Notes under the pieces: model-generated
What the model was told of the DNA's origin: nothing
What the model saw: the letters and a program-made list of their open reading frames with translations, nothing else
The model's database searches: none
Shown here: piece by piece, positions 53,157 through 56,142 of the stretch
How the letters are laid out: every line of letters starts with the position of its first letter
How positions within the stretch are numbered: position 1 is the stretch's first letter
NCBI RefSeq assembly: GCF_025452235.1
Contig: NZ_CP104965.1
Coordinates: 2,414,501 to 2,478,500 of the forward strand
Length of the DNA: 64,000 nt
Direction of reading: 5' to 3'
Source of the DNA: Devosia neptuniae
GTDB taxonomy: Bacteria; Pseudomonadota; Alphaproteobacteria; Rhizobiales; Devosiaceae
Translations under genes and position numbers: made by a program

Positions 53157-53414
53157 TTGGAATGGGACGAGGAGAAGTCGGAGCGGAACCGCGTCATGCG
53201 TGGTTTCGGGTTCGAGATTGCGAATGAGTTTGATTGGTCTGCTGCGATCGTCGAGCGAGACGATCGAAAAGACTATGGAGAGATAAGATACAGGGCCTTT
53301 GGGTGGGCCAATGCGCTGCGGCTCTGTATCGCCTTTACGGTTCGTGGAGGCGAGACCCGGATTATCAGTGTGCGACGTGTGCACGACAAGGAGGCCAGCA
53401 AATATGGCATCTAA
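53157..53414 (+). CDS. brnT: BrnT-type ribonuclease toxin
   Basis: 85 residues. WDEEKSERNRVMRGFGFEIA and the C-terminal RIISVRRVHDKEASKYG match the BrnT fold, a RelE-like ribonuclease toxin. Its usual opening (FEWDxxK) is present from the first residues. No ATG is available: TTG at 53157 gives MEWDEEK with a GGCGG-like site before it. The length is near the family's 90. It overlaps brnA by 11 bases. Confidence 0.88.
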   Translation: MEWDEEKSERNRVMRGFGFEIANEFDWSAAIVERDDRKDYGEIRYRAFGWANALRLCIAFTVRGGETRIISVRRVHDKEASKYGI

Positions 53415-53688
53415 GCACAAGCCAGATCCGTATCTGATCGATTTTGAGACCGCTCCTTTGACGGAAGAGGAGATCAAGCGCCTTCGACCGGCGCGAGAGG
53501 TTTTTGCCGAGCTTGGCCTTCCATTGCCCGGCAAGCCGGGGCGCCCGCCAAGCGGTAATGGCAAGCAGCAGGTGACCCTGCGGCTCGACAATGAGATCAT
53601 TGATTTCTTCAAGGCCGACGGTCCTGGTTGGCAGACGCGACTCAATGAGGAACTCGCATCGGTGGTGCGCCAGCGCAAGAAGGCCTAG
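53404..53688 (+). CDS. brnA: BrnA-type antitoxin
   Basis: 94 residues. The N-terminal half is flexible. The C-terminal half, QQVTLRLDNEIIDFFKADGP followed by GWQTRLNEEL, is the ribbon-helix-helix region of BrnA that binds operator DNA and neutralises BrnT. ATG at 53404 lies inside brnT; the longer open frame is not used. Its stop shares bases with that of the convergent sigma-factor gene (CTAG at 53685-53688). Confidence 0.9.
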   Translation: MASKHKPDPYLIDFETAPLTEEEIKRLRPAREVFAELGLPLPGKPGRPPSGNGKQQVTLRLDNEIIDFFKADGPGWQTRLNEELASVVRQRKKA

Positions 53689-54929
53689 CCATCCTGCAAT
53701 GCCGAGCGTTGGCCGGTCAGGTACTGGCGTACGGCTTCGTCGGTTGAGAGGCCGATGGCCAGGGTGAGGGCTTCGTGGGCTTGGTCCTTGCGGCCGGCGC
53801 GGGCAGCGAAGTGGCCGCGGGCGGCCCAATAGGGTTGGTAGTCGGCCATGCGCTTGTCGTCGGCGATGGTGTCGAGGCTGGTTAGCGCGGCTTCGGGACC
53901 GTCGCGTTCGGCAAGGGCGGCGGCGCGGTTGAGGATGACGACGGGCGAGTCGGTCAATTGCAGCAACACATCGTAGAGCGTGACAATGGTGGGCCAATTG
54001 GCTTGGCCAGTGACGCGGCGGGCGATGTGGGCGGATTGGATGGCGGCTTCGATCTGGTAGCGGCCGGTGGGACCGGCGCGATTGGCGGCGCGGAGCAGGG
54101 CTTCGGCGGCCATGATTTGCGGTTCATCCCACAGAGCAATGTCCTGCTGTTCGAGCGGCACATAGAGTCCGTCGGGATCGCGGCGGGCGGGGCGACGGGC
54201 TTCGGCGTAGAGCATCAAGGCGAGCATACCCTTGGCTTCGGGCTCATCGGGCAGGAGCGACACGACCAGCCGGCCCAGCCAGATGGCTTCGTCGGCCAGC
54301 CGGTCGGCGGCGGCATCGCCGATTTCGGTCCAGCCCTTGGCATAGGCGGCATAGATGGCTTCGAGTACGGCATCGAGCCGGCCGGGCAGGTCTTCGCGCT
54401 CGGGTATGGCGAAGGGAATGCCAGCGTCCTTGATGCGGGTTTTGGCGCGCACCAGGCGCTGGCCCATCGTGGCGGGCGGAATAAGGAAGGCGGCGGCGAT
54501 GTCGATGGCGGTGAGGCCCAGAATGGTCTGCAGGATCATCGGCGCGCGCATGCCCGCTTCGATTGCGGGGTGGGCGCAGGCGAACATCAGCGCGAGGCGC
54601 CGGTCGGGGATGGCATCGGGATGGGCGGCGGCGTCTTCGAGTTCTTCGGCCATGAGCTGGATATGAACCTCCCCGGCGGTACGGGTGTAGCGGCGGCGGA
54701 CGGCGTCGGTCTGGCGGCGGCGGGCCACGGTCAGCAGCCAGGCGTCGGGATTGTCCGGCACGCCGTCGTCCGGCCAGGATTTGAGGGCGCTGGCAAAGGC
54801 TTCCGCCAGCGCATCCTCGGCGCCCGCAACATCGCGGGTGCGGGCAGCGAGAAAGGCGACGAGGCGGCCATAGCTGTCGCGCGCCACGCGCTCGGCGGCC
54901 CGGCGCGCCTCGTTGCCTAGTTCACTCAC
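53685..54929 (-). CDS. ECF42-type RNA polymerase sigma factor
   Basis: 414 residues, long for an ECF sigma factor. Region 2 (LVAFLAARTRDVAGAEDALA, then WLLTVARRRQTDAVRRR) and region 4 (TAIDIAAAFLIPPATMGQRL) are followed by a large helical C-terminal extension (ILNRAAALAERDGPEAALTS). That extension is the hallmark of the ECF42 group, known to sit beside DGPF/YCII genes. No anti-sigma gene is present. It overlaps the upstream YCII gene by 4 bases and is last in a four-gene operon, so it may amplify its own expression. Confidence 0.9.
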   Translation of the reverse strand: MSELGNEARRAAERVARDSYGRLVAFLAARTRDVAGAEDALAEAFASALKSWPDDGVPDNPDAWLLTVARRRQTDAVRRRYTRTAGEVHIQLMAEELEDAAAHPDAIPDRRLALMFACAHPAIEAGMRAPMILQTILGLTAIDIAAAFLIPPATMGQRLVRAKTRIKDAGIPFAIPEREDLPGRLDAVLEAIYAAYAKGWTEIGDAAADRLADEAIWLGRLVVSLLPDEPEAKGMLALMLYAEARRPARRDPDGLYVPLEQQDIALWDEPQIMAAEALLRAANRAGPTGRYQIEAAIQSAHIARRVTGQANWPTIVTLYDVLLQLTDSPVVILNRAAALAERDGPEAALTSLDTIADDKRMADYQPYWAARGHFAARAGRKDQAHEALTLAIGLSTDEAVRQYLTGQRSALQDG

Positions 54930-55270
54930 GGCTCGCGGGCCGGCCAGATGGGTCGCACTTCGACCGTGCCATATTGGGCGCTGGGGCAGCGGGCCGCCCA
55001 GGCGATGGCGGCATCAAGATCGGGCACGTCGAGCAGCACATAGCCGGCAAACTGCTCCTTGGTGTCGACATAGGGGCCGTCGAGGATTTCCGGCGTACCG
55101 GAGCGGCGCGTGATGCTCTTGCCTTCCGTGCTGGCGCCCAGGCGTTCGCCGGGCGTGCCGGCCCCGGCCTTGAGCAGCGCCTCGCGGAAGGCGGCATATT
55201 CGCCCCAGAGCGAGGGGGGTGCCTTGGCGAGGGCTTCGTCGTCGTGGTGGATGAGGAGTATGTAACGCAT
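54926..55270 (-). CDS. DGPF/YCII-family protein, copy 1
   Basis: 114 residues. MRYILLIHHDDEALAKAPPS, the motif ILDGPYVDTKEQFAGYVLLD and VRPIWPA near the end are the DGPF form of the YCII fold, a small dimeric ferredoxin-like barrel. Its chemical role is not known. It is directly upstream of the sigma-factor gene and translationally coupled to it. AAGGAA precedes the start. Confidence 0.9.
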   Translation of the reverse strand: MRYILLIHHDDEALAKAPPSLWGEYAAFREALLKAGAGTPGERLGASTEGKSITRRSGTPEILDGPYVDTKEQFAGYVLLDVPDLDAAIAWAARCPSAQYGTVEVRPIWPAREP

Positions 55271-55280
55271 AGCTTTTTCC

Positions 55281-55634
55281 TTAGCCCTGGGTCGGCCAGA
55301 CGGGGCGCACTTCGACTGTGCCCCGCTGGGCGGCGGGGCAGCGGCCGGCCCAATCCATGGCGGCGTCCATGTCGGCGGCTTCGATCAGGTAATAGCCGCC
55401 AAGCTGTTCCTTGGTCTCGGCATAGGGGCCATCGAGCACTTCGGTCTTGCCGTTGCGGATGCGCACGCTGGCGGCCGTGGTAGTGGGACGCAGCCGATCG
55501 CCGGCCAACATGGCGCCGGCCTTGATCAGGGCTTCGTTGTAGGCGGCATATTCGGGGCTCATCTGGCCGGGAGTGGCCGGAGCGGCGGCTGCGACGGCTT
55601 GTTCGTCGGCGTGGATCAGCAGCATGAACTTCAT
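55281..55634 (-). CDS. DGPF/YCII-family protein, copy 2
   Basis: 117 residues. MKFMLLIHADEQAVAAAAPA, VLDGPYAETKEQLGGYYLIE and a VRPVWP end match copy 1. A GGAG site sits before ATG at 55634; the earlier start at 55646 is less likely. It has its own ECF42-like promoter 43 bases upstream and lies 10 bases before copy 1, so copies 1 and 2 and the sigma gene form one transcript. Confidence 0.9.
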   Translation of the reverse strand: MKFMLLIHADEQAVAAAAPATPGQMSPEYAAYNEALIKAGAMLAGDRLRPTTTAASVRIRNGKTEVLDGPYAETKEQLGGYYLIEAADMDAAMDWAGRCPAAQRGTVEVRPVWPTQG

Positions 55635-55676
55635 TTTCGTCTCCATGGGTTGGATCGGAGCGGCGCCCCGATGCAA

Positions 55677-55706
55677 CTATGTCGAAGGGGAAAGACGGGT
55701 TTCGAC
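55677..55706 (-). promoter_or_regulatory. ECF42-type promoter of YCII copy 2
   Basis: On the minus strand: GTCGA (55706-55702), 17 bases, CGACATAG (55684-55677). The -10 ends 43 bases before the start codon at 55634. The same spacing and -10 occur in front of copy 3. Confidence 0.75.
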
Positions 55707-55722
55707 TCTTGGCGTAGAAAAA

Positions 55723-56073
55723 TTATCGATCGGCGTGGAATGGCCGGATTTCAATCGATCCCCAGGTGGCGGCGGGGCATTGGGCGGCCAGTTCCATGGC
55801 CCGATTCATATCGGGCGCCTCCATAATGTAATAGCCGCCGAATTGCTCGCGGGTGTCGGCATAGGGGCCGTCATGCACCTTGAGTTGCCCAGCGTCGAGC
55901 TTGATGGTCTTGGCATCCGAGGTTGGGGTGAGCCCGGCGGTAGCGACGAAGGCGCCGGCCTTTTCGAGGGCTTCCTGATAGGCATGCATTTTGCCCATAA
56001 AACCGGCCATCTGCTCGGGCGGAATGGCGGCGCCGGCCTTCTCGTCGGCATAGAGCATCAGCAGATATTTCAT
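55723..56073 (-). CDS. DGPF/YCII-family protein, copy 3
   Basis: 116 residues. MKYLLMLYADEKAGAAIPPE, VHDGPYADTREQFGGYYIME and IEIRPF at the end are family features. GGAG before ATG at 56073 fixes the start. It is the first gene of the cluster, preceded by an ECF42-like promoter, and is separated from copy 2 by a second such promoter. The three copies differ in sequence, so they may have separate roles or form mixed oligomers. Confidence 0.9.
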   Translation of the reverse strand: MKYLLMLYADEKAGAAIPPEQMAGFMGKMHAYQEALEKAGAFVATAGLTPTSDAKTIKLDAGQLKVHDGPYADTREQFGGYYIMEAPDMNRAMELAAQCPAATWGSIEIRPFHADR

Positions 56074-56112
56074 CACGCATCTCCTTCCAGCGGGCAATAT
56101 AGCCCGTCATGG

Positions 56113-56142
56113 CTATGTCGCGCGAGGGCGGGAGATTTCGAC
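56113..56142 (-). promoter_or_regulatory. ECF42-type promoter of YCII copy 3
   Basis: On the minus strand: GTCGA (56142-56138, within TGTCGA), 17 bases, CGACATAG (56120-56113). The -10 ends 40 bases before the start at 56073. TGTCGA and CGA/TC are, from memory, the elements reported for ECF42. Confidence 0.78.

Follow-up and report, generated by a model that had tools for sequence, protein, structure and literature searches.

Whether an extracytoplasmic function (ECF) sigma factor switches on its own gene together with those of its small partner proteins is the question raised by a gene cluster of Devosia neptuniae, in which a sigma factor gene of the ECF42 type is preceded by three genes of the DGPF/YCII family and two matching promoter-like elements. 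The cluster was analyzed within a stretch of 64,000 nucleotides (contig NZ_CP104965.1, positions 2,414,501 to 2,478,500; hereafter the window, whose numbering is used for local coordinates), where its genes and elements lie on the minus strand in the order, from upstream to downstream, outer promoter, YCII A, inner promoter, YCII B, YCII C and sigma. It is a typical, ordinary and well-formed ECF42-type circuit, made up of a sigma factor with a C-terminal extension resembling tetratricopeptide repeats (TPR) and three DGPF paralogues, and its anatomy is consistent with self-activation. Taken as a whole, an autoregulated ECF42-type circuit with TPR-governed activity and DGPF proteins as products is the probable explanation of the locus.

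The two predicted promoters read (A)GTCGA-N17-CGACATAG at 55677..55706, ahead of YCII B (inner), and (T)GTCGA-N17-CGACATAG at 56113..56142, ahead of YCII A (outer), exactly as described in the original prediction, with an identical 8-base -10 that ends in ATAG in this species. The distance from the last -10 base to the start codon was 42 nt for one of these YCII genes and 39 nt for the other, against 40-43 bases in the original prediction. Within the window, GTCGA-N17-CGACATAG gave two matches when spacers of 15-19 were allowed, against zero in each of 100 shuffled sequences. Across the 4.7-Mb genome, spacers of 16-18 gave four matches and the reversed pattern none, and at spacer 17 the genome-wide scan proposed with the original prediction recovered only the two locus elements; no extra exact site was found outside the locus by these whole-genome scans. 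The bare core GTCGA-N17-CGAC was also read at 55681-55706 (+), which is the inner promoter read on the opposite strand, and at 55291-55316 (-), in the coding 3' end of YCII B and 20 nt before YCII C; the latter, whose -10 lacks AT, is probably coding sequence, and a weak third promoter may lie there.

Conservation was followed in a genus set of 75 genomes, on which both the sigma search and an exact scan for GTCGAA-N16-CGACATNG were run. Orthologues of the sigma factor (63-98% identity) were present in 33 of the 75 genomes, including that of the window, with those of G095 and G025 partial or split; more distant ECF42 paralogues (approximately 35-44% identity) occurred in most genomes, some match being found in 71 of 75 (E <= 1e-60). 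The split in G025 (L084) runs across two frames, and in G038 (L072) the N-terminus of the orthologue is out of frame. The scan yielded 94 matches, against 4 for the reversed pattern, and 48 of the 94 lay within 4.5 kb of an orthologous sigma gene, in 29 of the 33 genomes having that sigma (G087, G018, G095 and G025 had no exact linked match). At least one CGAC element stood before a YCII gene in 29 of the 31 orthologous loci fetched, and two or more did so in 19 of the 31 under one fixed criterion, whose distance limit was exceeded by the second element present in L066 and L067. The finder required GTC, CG[A/T]C and a spacing of 17, and rewarded GTCGAA; AT after the -10 core was neither required nor scored. 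In the 51 elements recovered before YCII genes in these loci, the -10 extension nonetheless carried A in 51/51, T in 50/51 and the final G in 46/51, and the place before that G was T in 38/51, so ATTG is commoner in the genus than the ATAG of the window species. Spacer columns showed little conservation among the 51 elements. The 17-base spacers of the inner and outer element are not alike, and each element recurs with its own spacer in orthologous loci across the genus, as expected from the earlier claim that no recent duplication was involved. Both elements are supported as real promoter-like elements that did not arise by recent duplication.

Reading them as chance or coding-sequence coincidences draws on the additional core within the end of YCII B and on genus-wide matches, some of which are clearly coding noise. 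The shuffle and reversed-pattern controls argue against such a coincidence, as do the conservation at 29/31 orthologous loci and a footprint in diverged upstream DNA described below; for the two window elements it is refuted by the conservation test, and the probability left to it is negligible.

The sigma factor gene (53685..54929, GTG start) encodes 414 amino acids (aa), with a sigma-2 and sigma-4 core at approximately residues 1-170 and, behind it, an all-helical TPR-like C-terminal extension, which bears out the predicted long extension and ECF42 type. Pfam matched Sigma70_r2 (38.1 bits) and DUF6596 (104.5 bits at 184-282) and listed no separate sigma-4 match; a profile of seven sigma relatives, however, fitted solved ECF sigma factors over approximately positions 10-170, covering both regions. 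The structure model had a predicted local distance difference test (pLDDT) of 91.7, and the best Protein Data Bank (PDB) fold matches of the extension were TPR proteins. Several features that characterize the ECF42 group were found at the locus: a TPR-bearing extension some 200 residues long (a TPR-like fold by model), YCII/DGPF genes beside the sigma gene (three here), and the target promoter layout of TGTCGA/G and CG(A/T)C at 17 nt, with A in place of the first T in the inner promoter. The NCBIfam search returned sigma matches below cut-off only. The protein is ECF42-type, as assigned by domains, extension, YCII context and promoter motif.

All three upstream proteins exceeded the Pfam cut-off of 24 for YCII (PF03795): YCII A (55723..56073, ATG at 56073; 70.3 bits on 55723-56070), YCII B (55281..55634; 86.1 bits) and YCII C (54926..55270; 62.5 bits), the end of which shares 4 nt with the sigma start. 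The DGPF label of the original prediction holds for the family, whereas the signature itself reads DGPY in all three. The nearest solved structure for YCII B was PA1349 (PDB 1s7i; residues 1-115, E 5e-23), an akin DGPF/YCII protein listed as 'hypothetical protein'. In a tree of 85 YCII proteins, for which the tool warned of few columns, YCII A and its orthologues formed a supported set of 22 (98/94) and A and B together a supported set of 44 (95/99), B alone being no clade; C-like rows formed a set of 24 whose support (90/81) did not reach the tool's star. With moderate support, the three appear as separate lineages, in line with the prediction of three distinct genes.

According to the favored mechanism, the sigma factor would guide RNA polymerase to two local promoters of the form GTCGAA-N16-CGACAT(A/T)G, one serving DGPF A and the other the operon of DGPF B, DGPF C and sigma. 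The inner element, positioned for transcription of YCII B, YCII C and sigma, would be the autoregulatory one; at loci where YCII B is missing it stands directly before YCII C, so it resembles a promoter belonging to the sigma operon itself. The outer element would act on YCII A, perhaps with read-through.

Related systems have been described. In Sinorhizobium meliloti, the ECF42 factor RpoE10 likewise has a YCII gene, SMc01151, directly upstream, and no anti-sigma (PMC6180224). RpoE10 raises six genes, with mapped promoters at two operons (PMC6180224); these targets, SMc01149-SMc01148 and SMb20475-SMb20474, carry TGTCGG-N17-CGTC, and their 5+17+4 geometry (PMC6180224 Table 1; spacing counted here) equals that of the window elements. 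The two systems differ in the number of YCII genes (one in S. meliloti, three here), in the -10 (CGTC versus CGAC) and -35 (GTCGG versus GTCGA), and in the unlinked targets, which for RpoE10 are glyoxylase-like and hydrophobic-ligand-binding proteins, unlike those found in Devosia (PMC6180224). ECF42 factors of Streptomyces venezuelae (Sven_0747, Sven_4377, Sven_7131) have an extension of about 200 residues, rich in TPRs, on which their activity depends (PMC8999054), and ECF-10 of Pseudomonas putida is an ECF42 factor with YCII context, as in the window (PMC8999054, PMC6180224).

Several observations weigh against the favored explanation. Over-expression of RpoE10 left its own YCII gene not raised, perhaps because the motif of that gene overlaps the transcript start (PMC6180224). 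Conservation of the letters that the finder required or rewarded (GTC, CG[A/T]C, spacing 17, GTCGAA) is partly built in. One orthologous locus with an intact sigma frame had no element (L082), another, with a split sigma frame, had CGTC in place of CGAC (L084), and 80 of 180 ECF42-like loci from a wider set gave no element under the criteria used.

A related proposal is that the elements are real ECF42 promoters driven mainly by a second ECF42 paralogue (C2:2115098-2116312), the local sigma not being autoregulated. That paralogue exists in the same genome, the -35 is common to all ECF42 paralogues, and RpoE10 apparently fails to activate the operon in which it lies (PMC6180224). The CGACAT elements, however, sit at the loci of this sigma's orthologues, and CGACAT stood before none of the 87 other YCII genes examined across 17 genomes; genomes without this sigma showed no counterpart of the linked sites, with 16 exact matches in 42 genomes, partly inspected (L183, L184). 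We consider control by the second paralogue unlikely.

The 87 genes came from a census of 16 further genomes, 8 with and 8 without this sigma, which gave 115 YCII places; 18 at this sigma's loci, 11 beside other ECF42 genes and 6 not fetched were set aside, leaving 80, to which were added 7 of the 10 YCII genes of the window's genome (the three window genes being left out), one of the seven, L015, adjoining the second ECF42 gene. CGTC was found at 30 of the 87 and CGAC[C/T] at 4, and 53 had no element; an antisense control on the same upstream DNA gave 2 matches, versus 34 genes with a sense match. The distribution was 19 CGTC, 4 CGAC and 25 without element in genomes with this sigma (n=48), and 11, 0 and 28, respectively, in genomes without it (n=39). 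CGTC sites read CGTCG in 28 of 30 cases, and all four CGAC sites read CGAC[C/T]. Three of these four genes belonged to genomes that also encode an ECF42 factor of a third type (G027, G047, G087; 42-44% identical to the sigma of the window), and where its own YCII gene was fetched (L091, L095), this too has CGAC[C/T]; the fourth was in G020, where no third-type sigma was seen. In the genome of the window, CGTCG elements stood at three other YCII genes (L016, L020, L021); L021 (C2:2482240), with TGTCGAA-N16-CGTCGC upstream, lies approximately 3.7 kb past the right end of the window. The -10 type follows gene and paralogue, the -35 being common to all, and each paralogue would functionally match its own -10.

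A one-mismatch scan of the same genome gave 11 matches, including the two locus elements (control, 1). Two of the nine others, GTCGAA-N16-CGTCATAG, lay 34 and 42 nt before a DoxX-like gene (L195) and a GyrI-like gene (L201), respectively; their -10 is CGTC, so they are not assignable to this sigma as targets, and the sites could belong to either ECF42 circuit of the genome.

In the wider set (180 ECF42-like loci from many phyla, some duplicated between sources, with 80 named loci that are the best 80 of 591 candidates and favor close relatives), a GTC-type element at 17 spacing preceded a YCII or sigma gene in 100 loci. The third -10 base of these was A in 46 and T in 54, mixed in none, and all 20 loci with two or more elements agreed in -10, 19 of them being Devosia orthologues of this sigma. 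A position-specific residue-to-base code has been published for ECF promoters in general (cited in PMC8103513). Such a code for the third -10 base was sought in 175 sigma columns and 35 clusters, and no column in DNA-contacting region 2 stood out; the best, residue 3 (1/500 permutations), carries no weight once 175 tests are allowed for. An apparent link between GRF(K/R)A(I/V/L)D and CGAC was an impression only, with exceptions in L097 and L099.

The original prediction had pictured a circuit of sigma and DGPF; both parts are present, and the picture is incomplete, as relatives carry the same element before unlinked genes. Exact matches away from the sigma gene numbered 30 in the 33 sigma-bearing genomes, and 13 were assigned to genes. 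Four (G047, G017, G086, G087; L166, L167, L168, L169) lay shortly before a gene similar to SMP-30/gluconolactonase (Pfam SGL 121.8 bits for the protein of G087). That gene occurred in 7 of the 75 genomes (E <= 1e-30), with the element before 4 of 6 full-length orthologues; the gene was present but the element missing in G001 (sigma present) and G084 (sigma absent), and the partial copy in G091 fell outside this count. One site, in G028, preceded a weakly glyoxalase-like gene.

Eight further matches preceded an uncharacterised gene of about 140 aa, found in 9 of 15 genomes with the sigma and 0 of 15 without, the 30 genomes having been chosen partly for these matches. In all nine Devosia orthologues (L400-L408), TGTCGAAG-N15-CGACATG was invariant, approximately 26-46 nt before the start, in upstream DNA otherwise diverged; no other footprint found here was as strong. 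The family counts 618 relatives in the database (E <= 1e-3), with a Pfam domain in none of the best 120 of the 618, and a 37-member alignment showed an invariant or nearly invariant core, LDHxFxHRxRxxEGKDGxxLNExRxx (LDHxFxHRxR..EGKDG..LNEVR); fold and family searches gave no trustworthy match. Neither this gene nor the SMP-30 gene (E <= 1e-30) was found when looked for in the window's own genome. The remaining 17 unlinked matches in the 33 genomes with the sigma (0.52 per genome, versus 0.38 for the 16 in the 42 without) look like background. The GTCGAACGCTTCTGGCC..GCGACATAG series, seen in several genomes, was rejected as a target; in the one inspected (L184) it overlaps reading frames and precedes no clear gene. 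In the relatives, the circuit would thus not be confined to sigma and DGPF.

How the circuit would be governed bears on the role of the DGPF proteins. No anti-sigma was found among the neighbors put to Pfam, namely the three YCII genes and the BrnT/BrnA pair, which supports the predicted absence of such a gene to the extent of these neighbors. In the preferred mechanism, activity would not depend on a separate anti-sigma and would most likely be set by the TPR-like extension, sensing a partner protein or ligand. The main products would be the DGPF proteins, ferredoxin-like dimeric enzymes or binders whose substrate or ligand is probably the small molecule provoking the response; feedback on the TPR domain is possible. 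DGPF proteins might instead be regulators rather than effectors, binding the extension and switching the sigma on or off, in which case the circuit would mostly tune itself until a metabolite altered the DGPF-sigma interaction. Many loci have DGPF genes next to the sigma gene (154 of the 180 fetched stretches contained a YCII match at some place), the modeled extension has a TPR-like fold, and a regulatory part for the YCII protein has been proposed in a review that also mentions fused forms (PMC8999054). ECF42-type promoters, however, also stand before several YCII genes far from any ECF42 gene, which fits effectors better than dedicated partners, and such a sensor role is possible but doubtful.

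Downstream of the cluster, a BrnT toxin gene (53157-53414) and a BrnA antitoxin gene (53407-53688), both on the plus strand and identified by Pfam, are convergent with the sigma gene; the ends of the BrnA and sigma genes overlap by 4 nt.

ECF42 factors with DGPF proteins are widespread. For S. venezuelae, Liu and coworkers reportedly found in 2018 that the DGPF gene is cotranscribed with ECF42 and that the promoter is of the TGTCGA / CG(A/T)C type, and a study of P. putida ECF-10 is said to have linked it to stress resistance and biofilm. In the literature searched, outside of which the main ECF42 papers lie, nothing was found that ties ECF42 to SMP-30 or to paralogue-specific -10s. Three things raise the present locus above the ordinary: its double promoter has been conserved, the putative regulon reaches unlinked genes and includes an uncharacterised protein family, and there are signs of parallel circuits distinguished by their -10. 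The other YCII -10s (CGTCG, CGAC[C/T]) with their common -35 suggest parallel, insulated ECF42 circuits. Tentatively, there might be up to three per Devosia cell, sharing the -35 GTCGAA and separated by the -10s CGACAT (the window's type), CGTCG (a near genus-wide type) and CGAC[C/T]A (the third type), with the window type governing a detoxification-like regulon (DGPF, SMP-30 lactonase-like, glyoxalase-like and the ~140-aa family). If so, the published A/T ambiguity in the ECF42 -10 would be a mix of paralogue-specific codes and not tolerance. A clean promoter code conserved in one genus makes the signal and the function of the DGPF proteins tractable: it names a few putatively co-regulated genes, among which the enzymes give a clue to the substrate, and it predicts which of several ECF42 circuits in a cell a gene belongs to, which is testable with a handful of reporters.

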